Shown here piece by piece: positions 19,466 to 28,573 of a DNA stretch of 64,000 nt. The notes beneath the pieces were generated by a model. The model had not been told where the DNA came from, did no database searches, and was given only the letters and a program-made list of their open reading frames with translations. Origin of the DNA: a bacterium (GTDB lineage: Bacteria; Arandabacterota; Arandabacteria; Arandabacterales; Arandabacteraceae). Numbering within the stretch: position 1 is the stretch's first letter; the number at the start of each line of letters is the position of its first letter. The position numbers and the translations under genes were made by a program. The DNA lies in NCBI GenBank assembly GCA_029933125.1, contig JAOZOU010000001.1:456702-520701 (forward strand). The letters are read 5' to 3'.

Positions 19466-21823
19466 TTATTCATTCACAAGACCAGAATCAAGATCGTATA
19501 TCTTCCAGGCAAGGCTGTTAAGCTCATCAAGGAGATTACGTGAAATGGGGCATGTGGATTCCTCTATCCGTTTAACAAGCTCTTCCACCTGCCTTGCAAG
19601 TTTTGATCTTGAGGACTCTTGTGGATCAGGAATTGGTATCATCCTAAGTTTGGAAATCTTTATCTGCGGGAATGCCCTCTGGTTGATTTCGGGTGAGATT
19701 GCCGCAAGGAGGAGTCTGCAGACATCTGAGTTCAGTATCCCCAGGAGATATTCTATCGAATAACCATCTGGCACCTTTAGTCCCAGCAAGCTATTTCGGA
19801 AGTAGCACCTAAATCTGTGCCTGGCAGCAATAGGTCGAGAGGCTGTCTGACGCAAAAGGATATCAACTTCTTTGTAGGCCTCCGGTGAAGCTATTCGAAA
19901 GTATTCGCCTTTGCTCCGCTTATATCTCACGTTTAACCATTTGAGGGGTCGCTGGCAGCGGAAAAGCTTAACACGCTTGCCTTCAAGGAGCTCAACCCAA
20001 CCTGGTCTTGGCGCTGAATGCACAAGTTTGTGAGCCACGTTACCAGTGTGAACCCCAATGTCTTTGTAGCCATCTATGGGTTTATGCTTTGTAGAGGCAA
20101 TCTCGTAGAGCCGCCGCAGACGGGATGCGTACCAGGCTTCCCCATTTAGGGGAGAAAATCTCGAACTACTCTTGTGAAAAACACAGAGAGCGCTTTCTGC
20201 CTTCTCCCCCTTGCGCAAGCAAAACGTCATACTCGGCGTTATAGCTTTTGGGAAGACACCCTCGCCCCAGTAACGCACTTCAACCAAATTGCCAGCCCTA
20301 AGCATTCGCTGCCTTATGTCAGCATAGCCATCGAGATAGCCAACCTGATCAGGCACAACCATTGCAATGATTCCACCATCCTTGGCAAGCTCAACGCCCC
20401 TCAGCATGAAGATGGAATGGCTTGCTGGCCAGCCCTTGATTCCATATCTTGCTCTTAGCTTTTCATAATCTGTGCGGTGAGACTGCTGGTGCCTGCCTGA
20501 ATATGAAAGGTAGGGAGGATTGCCAATAACGACATCGAAACCTTCGTGCAATCTTGCTTGGCTGAAGGTGTATTCACTGCCACAAGAGGAAGATTGTGCT
20601 TCAAGATCACACAACACATTATGAGCCACAAGATTCCGTTTGAGGGCATCCACAAGTTCCCGACTCCATCCAACATGGAAAACTACAAGTAGCCTCGCGA
20701 TCTCAACAAAATCTGTTTCAACATCAATTCCATAAATACACTGGGTACCTATTGCTTTTCTAAAAGCCTCACTTTCACTTGAATCGTCCGAAGCACTAAG
20801 AGCCCAAGCCGTGTTCCTAAAGGTTGCTCCATAAAGCCAGTCAATTGCAGCAAGAAGAAAATGCCCAGCACCCATCGCAGGATCCAGAATCCTCATCTTG
20901 AGTATTCTTCGCGATGACAACTTCGATCTCCTCGAATTGGCAGAGAACAGATGCACGGTGAGAGCTCTATCAACGAGATAGTCTACAACGGCTGGGGGAG
21001 TGAAAAAGATGCCACGCCTCCGAACACTTTCTGACGAACAAGGCTCAAGAATGAAATTATGGGGTTCGCGAATGAAAATCTTCCCAGAGTCATCGTGGAA
21101 AAGATCGACTTGCTTGCCGACTGGTTGTGCCTTGGGTGGCTGAGGGCTTGCGAGTGAATCTGAATGAGTGATGTGGAAACGTTTGCGTCTCAGACTCACG
21201 CTCGTTACGACTCCCTGTGAAACCATCTTTGGCTCAAGCGTGATCAAAGTTTCGAAGACATAGCCGAGATCCGATGCGGTCAGATTTTCCATTTTGAGCT
21301 TCTTTCGCTCGATGCTACACTTAAGGGCTCTAAGCAAACTCATAAGAAAGGGTGGCGTAAGGCCTTCCAGGAACTTCTCATCTGGGAAAGCATCTGTAGC
21401 TTCGAGCAATCTCCTTATACGAAGATGAGTATCATGGGCGTGCTCGCCCATACCTTCCCTTGCAAGCCAGACGAGGCAGAAGCTCACAAGAAGACTCGAA
21501 TGATAAATCTTCCGAAGGCGCTCTTTGACCGAGGTGCCTTGAAACAATTTTGAATCTTGCCTCTCGCTATGCTCCGAGATCTTGCCTCCGACGAGCTCGC
21601 TAAGAGCAATGATCATTGAGGCAAGGCTTAGCCCATCTCGCAAGAGTTCCCCATCTGAGCCGACGAAGATCGATTCGTGAGTTGGTGAGAGACTCAAGCC
21701 CTCTCTTGTGCTATGAAGATCGATCTCACTCCTCATCTTTCTATCAGCCACATGGGCAATTTTGGGGGCACTCTCTGGGTCAGCTGCCATCTCTTCATTG
21801 GTTCCCGCATTCTGCGAACCCAA
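19466..21823 (-). CDS. N6-adenine DNA methyltransferase (Eco57I/TaqI-type)
   Basis: The 785-residue protein has an N-terminal helical region, motif I LDPAMGAGHFLLAA near residue 316 and the catalytic NPPYLSYSG near 434, both diagnostic of gamma-class adenine methylases. A TaqI-like target recognition domain follows (about 560-740; SRPIAARHRFRCYFRNSL, LLGILNSDV). No PD-(D/E)xK nuclease was recognised, so it may be an orphan methylase or the M/S part of a Type IIG-like enzyme whose nuclease has diverged. It starts 25 nt after the selenoprotein-like gene on the same strand, although no functional tie is evident. Confidence 0.85.
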   Translation of the reverse strand: MGSQNAGTNEEMAADPESAPKIAHVADRKMRSEIDLHSTREGLSLSPTHESIFVGSDGELLRDGLSLASMIIALSELVGGKISEHSERQDSKLFQGTSVKERLRKIYHSSLLVSFCLVWLAREGMGEHAHDTHLRIRRLLEATDAFPDEKFLEGLTPPFLMSLLRALKCSIERKKLKMENLTASDLGYVFETLITLEPKMVSQGVVTSVSLRRKRFHITHSDSLASPQPPKAQPVGKQVDLFHDDSGKIFIREPHNFILEPCSSESVRRRGIFFTPPAVVDYLVDRALTVHLFSANSRRSKLSSRRILKMRILDPAMGAGHFLLAAIDWLYGATFRNTAWALSASDDSSESEAFRKAIGTQCIYGIDVETDFVEIARLLVVFHVGWSRELVDALKRNLVAHNVLCDLEAQSSSCGSEYTFSQARLHEGFDVVIGNPPYLSYSGRHQQSHRTDYEKLRARYGIKGWPASHSIFMLRGVELAKDGGIIAMVVPDQVGYLDGYADIRQRMLRAGNLVEVRYWGEGVFPKAITPSMTFCLRKGEKAESALCVFHKSSSRFSPLNGEAWYASRLRRLYEIASTKHKPIDGYKDIGVHTGNVAHKLVHSAPRPGWVELLEGKRVKLFRCQRPLKWLNVRYKRSKGEYFRIASPEAYKEVDILLRQTASRPIAARHRFRCYFRNSLLGLKVPDGYSIEYLLGILNSDVCRLLLAAISPEINQRAFPQIKISKLRMIPIPDPQESSRSKLARQVEELVKRIEESTCPISRNLLDELNSLAWKIYDLDSGLVNE

Positions 21824-21848: not shown

Positions 21849-23201
21849 TCACACCACCTTGAGAAGTTGGCGAGCGGCGATATGAATGGGATCCCACGTT
21901 GGCGAAAAAGGTGGTGAATAGCCAAGATCAAGGTTGACAAGATCTTCAACTGCCAGCCCTGCCTGCAGAGCTGTGGCAAGGATATCAATGCGCTTGGCAG
22001 AGCCCAGGCCTCCAACTATCTGTCCTCCCAAGAGCCTTCCTGTCTTTTTCTCAGCGAGGAGCTTCACCGTGATAGGTTGCGTTCCAGGAAAGTATCTTGC
22101 CAAAGTGTGACCTGTTATCTTGGCTGATACAAAGTCGATACCGAGTCCCTCTAGCTCATGTTCACTAAGGCCTGTACGAGCAAACTCAGTTTCGACGAAA
22201 CGCGAGATCGCAGTTCCAACAACTCCTGGGAAGTTTACGTCATTACCTGCAACATTTAGTCCTGCAACTCTGCCCTGCTTGTTGGCAACAGTCCCGAGTG
22301 CAATCCAGGTTGGCTTGCCGCTTACGAGATGATGAGATTGAGCACAATCACCAGCTGCCCAAACGCCATCTACCTGTGTCTTGCAGCGGCTATCGACAAC
22401 AATGGCATCCTTGATGCCGAGCGGGATTCCCGCAGATTTCGCCAAAGCGGTATTCGGGCGTATTCCAATACCGAGTATGGCAATGTCCGCTGGAATCTCT
22501 CGCTTATCGGTTACAACTGCATTTAACTGCTTACCAGTTGTATCAAAACCTGTAAGTTTCTCACCGAGATAGAGACTTACACCTTCTTTGGCAATTGCGT
22601 CGGCAAGCAGCTTGGCCATATCCGGATCAAGCGTCCCCATTACTTGGGGAAGCATATCAATCAATACAATTTCGAGATCCCATCGCAGTAAGGCCTCCGC
22701 CATCTCGATTCCGATATAGCTTCCTCCGATGATGGCTGCTCTCTTTGCCTTTCTTTCCTCGAGCACCTTTCTCAAGGCAATCGCATCTTCGAGTGTCGTC
22801 ACTTCATAGATACCTTCAGCACCTATGCCTGGAACATTTGGTCGAATCGGAATTGCTCCAGTTGCAATCACAAGATAGTCCCAGGCTTGGGTAATCCTCT
22901 TCCCACCGTTTGGACGTTCAATCACAATCTGCCGCCCCGTGAGATCAATCTCGACAACCTGGCTACCTGTACGAACGTCAATCCCCTGTTTCTCTTTGAA
23001 TTCCTCAGGGGTTCTGACGATGAGCTTTTCAATCGTGTCGACAAACCTGCCGACGAAATACGGGATACCTCAGGCAGCATAGGAGACGTATCTTCCGGCT
23101 TCAAAAACGATAACTTCGAGGTCAGCTCGCTGGCGTTTCGCTTGAGAAGCTGCTGACATGCCAGCTGCACTTCCACCTATTACGACAAGTCTTGATTTCA
23201 T
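21849..23201 (-). CDS. Probable selenoprotein: CoA-disulfide reductase/NADH oxidase-like, Sec at residue 44
   Basis: Reading the reverse strand from ATG 23201 gives one continuous 450-residue frame interrupted only by TGA at 23072-23070. The family motif SYAACGIPY appears as SYAA-TGA-GIPY, so the stop falls exactly on the redox-active cysteine (Cys42-43 in NADH oxidase and CoA-disulfide reductase). Frame and homology continue on both sides without an indel: FAD motif VVIGGSAAGMSAAS at the start, VIATGAIP, NAD motif AIIGGSYIGIEMAEAL, VWAAGDCAQS, and the C-terminal dimer domain. A SECIS-like hairpin follows the TGA. The ribosome-binding site GGTGGGAG precedes ATG 23201. The fallback reading is a pseudogene, or a shorter protein from an internal start near 22925. 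The reaction would be NAD(P)H-dependent reduction of a disulfide, persulfide, or O2. Confidence 0.82.
23033..23056 (-). promoter_or_regulatory. Candidate bacterial SECIS element after the in-frame TGA
   Basis: Downstream of the TGA (ends 23070) the mRNA can form TCGT / ACGA and CGGC / GTCG stems (one G-U pair) with a 2-nt bulge on the 3' side and an apical loop AGGUUU. The first loop G pair lies about 22 nt after the UGA. E. coli fdhF SECIS has an AGGUCU loop about 18 nt after its UGA, so loop and distance fit bacterial SelB recognition. Stem strength was judged by eye only. Confidence 0.6.
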
Positions 23202-23271
23202 AGGCTCCCACCTTCCTCTGCACTGCCTCTCGTTCCTCTACATTTTTGTATTTTCCTCTATATTGCGCTCA

Positions 23272-24291: not shown

Positions 24292-27200
24292 ATGCTACGC
24301 CTGGTTTGGGTACTAATTCTTACTACGATTTTCGTTCTGGCGGCTGTTAGCTTCGCCTTTGTTCCTCCTCAGCAAGGTTCTCAGGCTGAGTGGCACAAGG
24401 TTCCTGTGTTTGAGAAAGCACCTCCGACTCCAGAAGCTCAGGCCTCGTGGGCCAGTTTCACAGCAAGGCAGGGGCAAGCGTGGCAGGCACTATGGAATCC
24501 ACTTACAGCGACACCGCATCGCATAATAGGAAAAGGAATTCGTCTTGCACAGGTTGTAACCCCTGCCAATGTGAGGAATCTAACAGATAGCTTCTTAAAT
24601 TCCGAGAGCGACCTTCTTGGAGTCGATCCCCAAGATCTTCGGCTGCTGAGTCAGGAGAAACATGGGGCAAGATGGTACACCGACTATCAGCAGACCTATC
24701 ATGGGCTTGATGTCATTGGCGGCAAAGTCCATATAAGACTGCGTGAGGATGGTAAGGTAACTGTTTTCGGTTCTGACTTCTACAATGGAATCGATATTTC
24801 AACCTCCCCGACACTCGACAGTGAACAGGCTCTGAGGCTTGCCAAGCAGGATGTGAATTACAACGAGAAGACCGACGAAGTGCGTTCATCAAGACTTGTA
24901 ATTCTACCGGTTGTGGAGATGAAGACCGTCTCGTTCCATCTTGCCTATGAGCTAAGGCTCTTTGTGAAGCAGACTCCGGCTCTTTGGCGCATCTATGTTG
25001 ATGCTCATGATGGATCGATCCTCAGGAAAGTTAACGAAATCCACTACGATATGATCGACGGTAGTGTCAGTGGTTACATCAAGCCAATGTACATATCTGA
25101 TCCCGATGCGGAGGAGGCTTTCATAGACCAATTCGTAACCGTAACTGGGTATGGTACTGACACAACCGACGCATCCGGATACTACGCAATTGAGGCTGGA
25201 AGCGGTGGGACACGCGAACTCAAGGCAGCACTCTCAGGCAGATGGGCCATCGTTACAAACAACAATGGACCAGAGGCATCTTTCCTAGATTCGATTTCCC
25301 CTGGCAACACAGTCTCAATTGTTTGGAACGATTCAATCTCGCGAGCAGATGAACGCAATGCTTACTACCATACAAACATGGCTCATGCCAGGATAAAGGC
25401 CATAGACCCATCCTTCACAGGGATGGATCGTCAGACACCCATAAGAGTAAATCAGCCCGACTACTGTAATGCATACTGGGACGGCAACGGAATTACCCTT
25501 GGGGCTGGTTCGGGAAGTTGCCAGAATCTTGCTATGTTCTGTGATGTTATCTATCACGAATATGGACATGGCATAACGGATTTCATCTATCGTCCACTTG
25601 CACCATCGGGTGCAATGCATGAAGCTTTCTCAGACTACTTCGCGTGCACCATAACCAATGAACCTTTGATCGGTGAATACGTTATCGGCTCTGGCTACTT
25701 TCGCAACCTCGATAACAACCTCAAGTATCCTGACGATCTTACGGGTGAAGTTCACGACGACGGACGGATTCTTGCCGGATCACTCTGGGATATGAGGCAA
25801 GCTCTTTTGCCCGATGTTCACCTTGCTGATTCCCTCTTCCATTATGCGCGCTATGGCAAGGCAGACAATTTCTTTGATTATTACTATGACGTCCTTGAGA
25901 CAGATGACGATGATGGTGATCTGACGAATGGTACACCACATTATTACGAGATTGTTGAAGCCTTTGGCAAGCACGGGATTGGACCTGGTCTTTACATCAA
26001 GATAGCCCATGAACCTGTCAAGGATACAGAGGATTCAACCCAGAGTTTTGTTGTTGTTGCTACAATAACTTCAAATGTGACTCTCAATCCCGATTCCCTG
26101 ATGGTCTTCTACTCTGTCGGGGCTGGATATAGCACACTCCTGATGAACCCAACTGGCAATCCAGATGAGTATTCTGCGACAATTCCAGCTCAGAGCTATG
26201 GAACAACAGTGAACTATTACATTTATGCTCAGGGGTTCGACATAGGCTTGATTGCGACAGATCCTGACAGTGCTCCCACCTATGTTCACAGTTTCTCAAT
26301 CGGGACAGACACAGAGCCTCCGACAATCGTACATATGCCGCTTGAAGACCAGCCCGATGCGGCATGGCCCGTAACAGTCTCGGCTGAGGTCACAGATAAC
26401 CTTGGTCTTGCATCGGTAGTACTTGAGTACAGCAAGAATGGTGTTCCTCAGACATCTATTCCCATGAGCAATGTGAGCGGGAACACGTATGAGGCTACCT
26501 TCGCTGTGGCTGCCTCTGTGGGAGACCAGATCGCCTATCGAATTGTTGCAATGGACGCCTCTGCTGCGGCACATGTTACCTATGAACCTCCAACAGGTTA
26601 CCACGATTTTGGTATAGCTCATGCCTATTATTACACATTTGAGTCAGGTGACGAGGGGTGGACACATCGTGCTGGCACAGGCTGGAATGATGAGTGGCAC
26701 TTGAGCACCGAACGCAATCATACGGACGGTGGAAATACAAGCTGGAAGTGTGGATCTTCAACTGGAGGAGAATATGGCGCAAACCTCAAGGCCTTCCTTG
26801 AGTCGCCCGTGATTACTCTGGGCCCAGGTGCAAAGCTTGTCTTCTGGCATTGGATTGATGCCGAGACCTATGAACCTGTTCAGGGATCGGGCCTTGCCTG
26901 GGATGGAGCCGCACTAAGTCTTATTGATTCCGCTGGAAAGGCAACACCGATCGATCCAGTCGATGGTTATCCCTATCGCATCCTCGAGCAATCAAGTGCA
27001 CCTTTTACTGCCAACAAGCCTGTCTATTCAGGACACAGCGATTGGCAGGTAGCCATTTTCGATCTCTCATTCTATGAAGGACCTTGCCAGTTTAGACTCA
27101 AGTTTGGCTCGGATGGCTATGTTGGGGGTGAAGGCTGGTACATCGATGATGTGATGATTTGGAGCCAGGATGCTCTGGCAGGCCTCCCTGCTTGCGATGA

Positions 27201-27510
27201 CAATTGCGATCAGGATCTCGGTGTTCCCCTTGAGTTTGGTCTGGGCCCAGCAATTCCCAACCCCACACGGGGTTCAGTTAAAATCGCCTATGCCGTGCCT
27301 TCAGCCAGTGACCGCATAGTCATCAAGATCTACGACATCCAGGGCAGGCTTGCAGCAAAACTCCTCGATGGAGCAAAGACTCCAGGCTGGTATTCAGTAA
27401 CCTGGGATGGCAGCAATGCCAGCGGAACACGGGTAGCACCAGGTATCTACTTTGTTAGAATGGAAGCTAAGGACTTCACAAGATCAATGAAGGTTATGCT
27501 TCTTAAATAG
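24292..27510 (+). CDS. Secreted M4/M36-type zinc metalloprotease with FlgD-type C-terminal domain
   Basis: The 1072-residue protein starts with a Sec signal peptide (MLRLVWVLILTTIFVLAAVSFA). An FTP-type propeptide region follows (about 100-260). The catalytic motif YHEYGHGITDF is near residue 422 and the third zinc ligand region GAMHEAFSDYFA about 20 residues later, as in fungalysin/thermolysin families. After the protease there are beta-sandwich modules, a MAM/jelly-roll-like segment (FESGDEGWTHRAGTGWNDEWH, about 780-960), and a C-terminal FlgD-type Ig domain (NPTRGSVKIAY, IKIYDIQGRLAAKLL, SVTWDGSNASGTRVAPGIYFVRM). The last domain is typical of surface or type IX-like cargo in FCB bacteria. 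AAAGGAGGG precedes the ATG. It likely degrades extracellular protein. Confidence 0.92.
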   Translation: MLRLVWVLILTTIFVLAAVSFAFVPPQQGSQAEWHKVPVFEKAPPTPEAQASWASFTARQGQAWQALWNPLTATPHRIIGKGIRLAQVVTPANVRNLTDSFLNSESDLLGVDPQDLRLLSQEKHGARWYTDYQQTYHGLDVIGGKVHIRLREDGKVTVFGSDFYNGIDISTSPTLDSEQALRLAKQDVNYNEKTDEVRSSRLVILPVVEMKTVSFHLAYELRLFVKQTPALWRIYVDAHDGSILRKVNEIHYDMIDGSVSGYIKPMYISDPDAEEAFIDQFVTVTGYGTDTTDASGYYAIEAGSGGTRELKAALSGRWAIVTNNNGPEASFLDSISPGNTVSIVWNDSISRADERNAYYHTNMAHARIKAIDPSFTGMDRQTPIRVNQPDYCNAYWDGNGITLGAGSGSCQNLAMFCDVIYHEYGHGITDFIYRPLAPSGAMHEAFSDYFACTITNEPLIGEYVIGSGYFRNLDNNLKYPDDLTGEVHDDGRILAGSLWDMRQALLPDVHLADSLFHYARYGKADNFFDYYYDVLETDDDDGDLTNGTPHYYEIVEAFGKHGIGPGLYIKIAHEPVKDTEDSTQSFVVVATITSNVTLNPDSLMVFYSVGAGYSTLLMNPTGNPDEYSATIPAQSYGTTVNYYIYAQGFDIGLIATDPDSAPTYVHSFSIGTDTEPPTIVHMPLEDQPDAAWPVTVSAEVTDNLGLASVVLEYSKNGVPQTSIPMSNVSGNTYEATFAVAASVGDQIAYRIVAMDASAAAHVTYEPPTGYHDFGIAHAYYYTFESGDEGWTHRAGTGWNDEWHLSTERNHTDGGNTSWKCGSSTGGEYGANLKAFLESPVITLGPGAKLVFWHWIDAETYEPVQGSGLAWDGAALSLIDSAGKATPIDPVDGYPYRILEQSSAPFTANKPVYSGHSDWQVAIFDLSFYEGPCQFRLKFGSDGYVGGEGWYIDDVMIWSQDALAGLPACDDNCDQDLGVPLEFGLGPAIPNPTRGSVKIAYAVPSASDRIVIKIYDIQGRLAAKLLDGAKTPGWYSVTWDGSNASGTRVAPGIYFVRMEAKDFTRSMKVMLLK

Positions 27511-27537
27511 GTAAGTTGACATCTGCAGAGTCCACGT

Positions 27538-27563
27538 GAGGGAAGCGCTAAGGAGCTTCCCTC
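27538..27563 (+). terminator. Hairpin terminator of the metalloprotease gene
   Basis: GAGGGAAGC pairs perfectly with GCTTCCCTC around an 8-nt loop, 27 nt after the stop. The tail is CTTGCTTCTT, almost the same as the tail of the hairpin at 10228. Confidence 0.6.
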
Positions 27564-27706
27564 CTTGCTTCTTGGTTTGCTTGCTTCGCCTCTAGTTTGG
27601 AATTTCGACTCTATTTCTCCAAGAACGCTTTTCCGCGGTGTAGTTTCCCAAAGACTTTGATCCCCCGCCCGCACCCTCTCCAAAATGGTCTACGCATCGA
27701 AGTGAG

Positions 27707-28573
27707 CTATACAAGTGTTTCCCCACGATAAAAAGGTGAGGCTGGATCATCTTCCGCCGGAGAAGTCTCTTCAGCGGGTATAGCCAACAGCTCCCCATAG
27801 AATTCAGGTCGCCTGTCCTTGAGAACATGATTACGCTGGGTTATCATCTTGTTGTTGGCAAGGTCCGGTTCAATTTCAATGACTCGCAAGCCCTCTTCGG
27901 TATCATCAGCGCGCACCAGCACCTCACCACGCGGACCAACAATCTGGCTCATTCCGATGAACCTAAGTTCCAGCCCAGCCCTTGCCTCCGTTCCTACTCG
28001 ATTGACTGTGACCGCAAAGACTCCATTCTCAATGCACCTTGTAATCATTGCTCTTGGACAATAGGGGAGAACAAGATTTGATGGATGGCAAATAATCTGT
28101 GCCCCCTTGAGGGCAAGGATACGTGTGACCTCGGGGAATATCCAGTCGAAGCAAATCATGAGCCCGACTTTAGCACCCCTCACTGAAACCACATCAAGAG
28201 ATAGGTTGCCAGGTGTGAAAAGTTCCTTTTCACGATCAAAGAGATGAAGCTTGCGATACTTGGCTCTTATGTCTCCATCTTCGATAAGATAGCAGGAGTT
28301 ATAGCATTCCCCATCAGCCCTTTCCGCAATCCCAGCCACGATTGCCATATTGAGCTTCAGTGAGAGTTGCTTAAGGAAGGTGAAAGTTTCACCTGCCTCG
28401 TCCTCTGCTAGCTCAAGGAGCTCGTCTTTAGATTCGAAGATGTATCCTGTTGAAAAGAGCTCCGGCAAGACTACAAGATCTGCCTTGGCTCCTTCGAGAA
28501 ATTGCTCAACACGCTCAAGGTTAGCTTTCTTATCTCCGAAAGCAGGCGCAAACTGCAGAAAACCAATTCTCAT
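27707..28573 (-). CDS. Carbon-nitrogen hydrolase (nitrilase superfamily amidase)
   Basis: The 288-residue protein has the Glu-Lys-Cys triad: E38 in VVLPELFSTGY, K108 in KYRKLHLFDREKELFTPG, and C141 in MICFDWIFPEV. Length fits omega-amidase, N-carbamoylputrescine or beta-ureidopropionase-type branches; the substrate cannot be read from sequence. It is cytoplasmic and appears monocistronic, convergent with the metalloprotease gene. Confidence 0.9.
   Translation of the reverse strand: MRIGFLQFAPAFGDKKANLERVEQFLEGAKADLVVLPELFSTGYIFESKDELLELAEDEAGETFTFLKQLSLKLNMAIVAGIAERADGECYNSCYLIEDGDIRAKYRKLHLFDREKELFTPGNLSLDVVSVRGAKVGLMICFDWIFPEVTRILALKGAQIICHPSNLVLPYCPRAMITRCIENGVFAVTVNRVGTEARAGLELRFIGMSQIVGPRGEVLVRADDTEEGLRVIEIEPDLANNKMITQRNHVLKDRRPEFYGELLAIPAEETSPAEDDPASPFYRGETLV

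Follow-up and report, generated by a model that had tools for sequence, protein, structure and literature searches.

A CoA-disulfide reductase-like flavoenzyme gene with an in-frame TGA almost certainly read as selenocysteine

How should a single TGA be read when the frame around it is otherwise open from end to end? The question is posed by a minus-strand frame (23201-21849) in the 64,000-nucleotide stretch of bacterial DNA analysed here, which we call the window. Sequence and translation give 450 codons, and the sole in-frame interruption is TGA 23072-23070. The initial annotation described the frame as open across this codon, and so it is: from the start at ATG 23201-23199 there is no stop other than codon 44, within SYAA-U-GIPYFV, until the TGA at 21851-21849 (Table 1). 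Mechanical ORF calling yields only 21849-22925, a 358-residue protein with a GTG start. That truncation had been foreseen correctly, together with loss of the FAD-binding part, which goes too far: the first 92 residues are lost, and with them the active site and the N-terminus that binds FAD. Annotation pipelines reduce the protein to 358 residues without an active site; the correct reading gives back a redox enzyme.

We propose, with high confidence and on the evidence of sequence comparison, that this is a selenoprotein gene and that its product belongs to the known CoA-disulfide reductase (UGxP) family. Sec44 would be inserted under direction of a hairpin and would take part in a flavin redox cycle acting on a sulfur substrate. 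That TGA 23072-23070 specifies selenocysteine is almost certain.

Table 1. Features of the flavoenzyme locus (positions in the window)
Feature	Position	Strand	Basis
Predicted Sec-containing CoA-disulfide reductase-like flavoenzyme gene, 450 codons + TGA stop	21849..23201	(-)	Translation with TGA=U; Pyr_redox_2, Pyr_redox_dim, TIGR03385
In-frame UGA, codon 44, almost certainly read as selenocysteine; aligned with active-site Cys	23070..23072	(-)	Translation; homologue alignments
Putative ribosome-binding site GAGGAAGG, 9 nt 5' of ATG	23211..23218	(-)	Read from sequence
Predicted bacterial SECIS hairpin GUCGGCA-GGUU-UGUCGAC, apical loop 23044-23047	23037..23054	(-)	Folding; pairing and covariation among Sec genes
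Terminal TGA of flavoenzyme gene, genuine stop	21849..21851	(-)	Translation; same end residue in orthologues, e.g. L040 ...ARQTLKLI*

With Cys written for U, a domain search finds Pyr_redox_2 and Pyr_redox_dim matches that span the whole length of the protein. The best NCBIfam model is TIGR03385, CoA-disulfide reductase, matched over the full length at 457 bits by a query carrying C at residue 44, and the motif UGIP fits UGxP. The curated equivalog cut-off of that model (578.8) is not reached; therefore, the substrate name is not assured, and we call the protein 'CoA-disulfide reductase-like'. The model for H2O-forming NADH oxidases follows well behind, at 255 bits. Among solved structures the best relative is 6ruz, the NADH oxidase of Thermus thermophilus; Coenzyme A disulfide reductases, including the Pyrococcus type, come next, and the TGA codon aligns with the active-site Cys of these enzymes. 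There is one FAD-facing Cys position (codon 44, the predicted Sec here); GYSPPF (the Tyr427-428 region) and ARYFPG are retained. The domain search reveals no C-terminal rhodanese domain: the dimerisation domain is the last, and the protein stops at residue 450.

Homologues show what the TGA replaces. The initial annotation had named the active-site Cys of SYAACGIPY, and indeed all non-TGA relatives compared have Cys, as TGC or TGT, at the homologous residue. Codon 44 in the homologue set is TGC in 65 rows, TGT in 26 and TGA in 14 (five of the 14 being repeats of the same contigs). Within the bacterium's own phylum the gene is present in four of eight genomes, related assemblies being bacterium Meg22_46_Bin_89 and Candidatus Eisenbacteria bacterium CSMAG_463, and every copy reaching codon 44 has TGA, a total of four genes from three genomes. 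Two partial copies, G001:C67 and G003:C327, whose contigs end before that codon, are uninformative on Sec. TGA occupies codon 44 also in three Thermomicrobiaceae, in bin HR32 and in Desulfofustis glycolicus, and a 395-genome sample of the phylum of Desulfofustis (Desulfobacterota) supplied further TGA genes, 16 at 52-57% identity and nine at 38-42%.

Might the gene in fact encode Cys, with the TGA due to a lone nonsense mutation or to a mistake in sequencing or assembly? That would require little, as TGA is just one base from TGC or TGT. Yet the same codon is TGA in independent assemblies, from three genomes of the phylum and from several other groups; the genome has Sec machinery, dN is low before and after the TGA, and the hairpin is specific to Sec genes (all below). 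We consider such an accident very improbable here, and for the group it is already refuted; the earlier judgement that a random nonsense mutation is unlikely is upheld by the recurrence of the TGA and the low dN on both sides.

Some motifs depart from the published one. Several of the genes at 38-42% identity (L174-L182), which likewise have TGA at codon 44, carry USEP, UPTP, ULMP or UETP, and their hairpins differ, for example UAUUACAUC-GGG-GAUGUAAUA. Even close Sec relatives (L145, L148, L151 and L155) have UAMP, UAVP or USIP instead of UGxP; the published motif is therefore too narrow. A 29%-identical homologue (L044, G002:C72:757-2076) contains one TGA and one TAG in frame.

The source genome (3.2 Mb, 96.7% complete, a fragmented assembly) contains SelA (580 bits), SelB (398 bits), tRNA-Sec (76.6 bits) and two SelD genes, one of which (361.7 bits) has a single in-frame TGA of its own, in CAG-U-ASK. 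The TGA-containing selD (L045/L056, C171:209908-211036) lies directly before the tRNA-Sec gene; the second SelD match (L055, C76:20148-21071) has no TGA and falls inside a 741-codon open frame, possibly that of a fusion protein. Among the genomes sampled, SelA was found in seven of eight with the Sec form of the enzyme versus four of 17 with the Cys form; the Sec-form genome without it is HR32, a 2.1-Mb bin. Other bacteria use codes in which UGA stands for an ordinary amino acid, and Trp or Gly recoding might be imagined for this gene too. However, TGA terminates genes of the window and the flavoenzyme gene itself, and the complete Sec machinery and the Cys of the non-TGA relatives also speak against it; recoding is hardly credible.

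Selection provides a further line of evidence. When the orthologues of G002 and G003 were compared, dS was 0.66 and dN 0.033 on the 5' side of the TGA, and 0.73 and 0.086 on the 3' side. Purifying selection acts on both sides. Constraint is therefore as strict 5' of the stop as 3' of it, a pattern not expected of a pseudogene or a truncated gene. The ORF for a genuine 358-residue protein, starting at GTG 22925 3' of the TGA, is certainly present, but its product would have neither the active site nor the FAD-binding motif GGSAAG, while the N-terminal part is conserved at the codon level in orthologues; we give next to no weight to either a pseudogene or a short protein.

If UGA is read as selenocysteine, a signal should direct the insertion. 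A hairpin at 23054-23037 has a 7-bp stem and the loop GGUU, which lies 22 nt after the UGA; it folds at -8.0 kcal/mol (z -4.6; 0 of 200 shuffles as good). Published rules for bacterial SECIS elements (bSECIS) call for a loop of 3-9 nt with G in the first two positions, a stem of 4-16 bp, a distance of 16-37 nt from the UGA and an MFE of at most -7.5 kcal/mol (PMC13188914, section 5); the hairpin agrees with all four. The seven stem pairs are paired in 93% of cells among 24 distinct Sec sequences versus 53% among 86 Cys sequences, and the hairpin is mostly missing from Cys homologues. In the 20 closest Sec sequences 97.9% of cells are paired, with compensatory changes at two stem pairs (one with G-C/A-U exchange in seven sequences, the top one with A-U, C-G and G-C), and the covariation score of the helix exceeds that of every slid version and of all 500 shuffles, which leave relatedness in place. 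Sec and Cys genes could not be told apart by folding the 51 nt after the TGA against plain shuffles; the signal resides in the specific helix. An Rfam scan of the UGA region gave nothing beyond a chance match. The hairpins of Thermomicrobiaceae and Desulfofustis satisfy the rules only with a bulged U, and more distant Sec genes have different hairpins with GGN-type loops, at least five of them, by simple count, just above -7.5 kcal/mol. Strong support now stands behind the initial proposal of selenocysteine in place of the active-site Cys in a flavoenzyme of the CoA-disulfide reductase/NADH oxidase type; the searches it had called for, for Sec machinery, for U/C pairs at codon 44 and for a predicted SECIS element, all gave positive results.

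How the residue came to be distributed in this way is less certain. A tree of 85 proteins requires no fewer than three changes of the Sec label, counted in either direction; a wider, quick tree of 96 proteins has six, again in either direction, five of them forced by strongly supported branches. One Cys gene (L161) is nested in a Sec clade with moderate support. These patterns are evidence for repeated Cys/Sec exchange within the family. Hairpin types among the Sec genes include GUCGGCA-GGNU-UGUCGAC, the bulged GUCGCC-GGUCU, AUC-GGN-GAU and AGAUCCC-GGUC-GGGAUCU. Whether Sec arose repeatedly, every gain being accompanied by a SECIS hairpin of its own, we regard as an evenly balanced matter; if it was, the family offers a compact natural series on the origin of SECIS elements inside constrained active-site coding sequence, and on why Sec is repeatedly preferred in this enzyme.

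What would the enzyme do? Ribosomes would insert selenocysteine at UGA 23072-23070 by means of SelB and tRNA-Sec, directed by the hairpin just downstream. The product would be a homodimeric flavoprotein. In CoA-disulfide and persulfide reductases, the si-face residue receives electrons from FAD, which NAD(P)H has reduced (PMC7969121), and by analogy electrons may pass here from NAD(P)H to FAD to the active-site residue; the selenolate of Sec44 would attack the sulfur substrate (CoA disulfide, CoA persulfide or polysulfide) to yield an Se-S adduct, from which the flavin would regenerate the selenolate. The lack of a rhodanese domain suggests delivery of sulfur by a small carrier such as CoA; the substrate may be CoA disulfide, a persulfide or another compound.

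Alternatively, the Sec enzyme might be mainly an NADH oxidase or peroxidase, with O2 or H2O2 as acceptor. The name 'NADH oxidase' is borne by the best solved relative and was the one under which the family entered the lists (PMC1794560); oxidase activity is possible in CoA-type enzymes (PMC7969121). But CoA-disulfide reductase models score 457 and 426 bits, far above the 255 of the H2O-forming oxidase model. Moreover, NADH peroxidase/oxidase enzymes have His near residue 10, where this protein has the segment VIGGSAAGMSA. An oxidase is accordingly the unlikelier role, if a serious contender; a thiol or persulfide reductase is preferred.

Gene neighbours fit thiol chemistry in two relatives, where the enzyme gene has divergent neighbours encoding a thioredoxin and a SLAC1-type channel; the window does not share this arrangement. 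Directly downstream in the window is an Eco57I/TaqI-type DNA methyltransferase gene (19466-21823, minus strand), and a similar gene follows the enzyme in a same-genus genome (L042). Genes for an M4-type peptidase and a carbon-nitrogen hydrolase (24292-28573) lie near the enzyme, as they do near a paralogue in G003 (L039). No other convincing selenoprotein emerged when the window was scanned mechanically for further frames interrupted by TGA; the scan filtered frames by their TGA count and, for that reason, missed the flavoenzyme gene as well.

The initial annotation had suggested a probable new selenoprotein. In this it was mistaken: the family was listed in 2006 as 'NADH oxidase', from one species, Geobacter metallireducens (PMC1794560); one GOS sequence was added in 2008 (PMC2398784); and a 2026 inventory has 'FAD-dependent oxidoreductase (CoA-disulfide reductase), TIGR03385, UGxP', predicted with high confidence (PMC13188914). 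As both family and motif have been listed, the gene is a new member, not a new family. New, as far as the literature searched goes, are members in a Candidatus Eisenbacteria-type lineage (no paper joining Eisenbacteria and selenoproteins was found there) and in Thermomicrobiaceae, and the evidence for Cys/Sec exchange. A sparsely documented selenoprotein family is thereby extended to several phyla, and Sec/Cys pairs become available to test what advantage selenium confers on a flavin disulfide or persulfide reductase.

Three known systems frame the comparison. The listed family (WP_011365774.1; PMC1794560, PMC9312934 and PMC13188914) shares the enzyme family, the single Sec and the U-G-x-P motif; its G. 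metallireducens member, compared by family and motif description, belongs to a different lineage. Cys-containing CoA-disulfide reductases and the T. thermophilus enzyme (6ruz) align over the full length (E 8e-111), but have Cys where the flavoenzyme described here would have Sec. The NADH-dependent persulfide reductase (Npsr) of Archaeoglobus fulgidus (6pfz; PMC7969121) matches in its FAD and NAD domains and in the active-site position, and differs in carrying the C-terminal rhodanese domain that our enzyme lacks.
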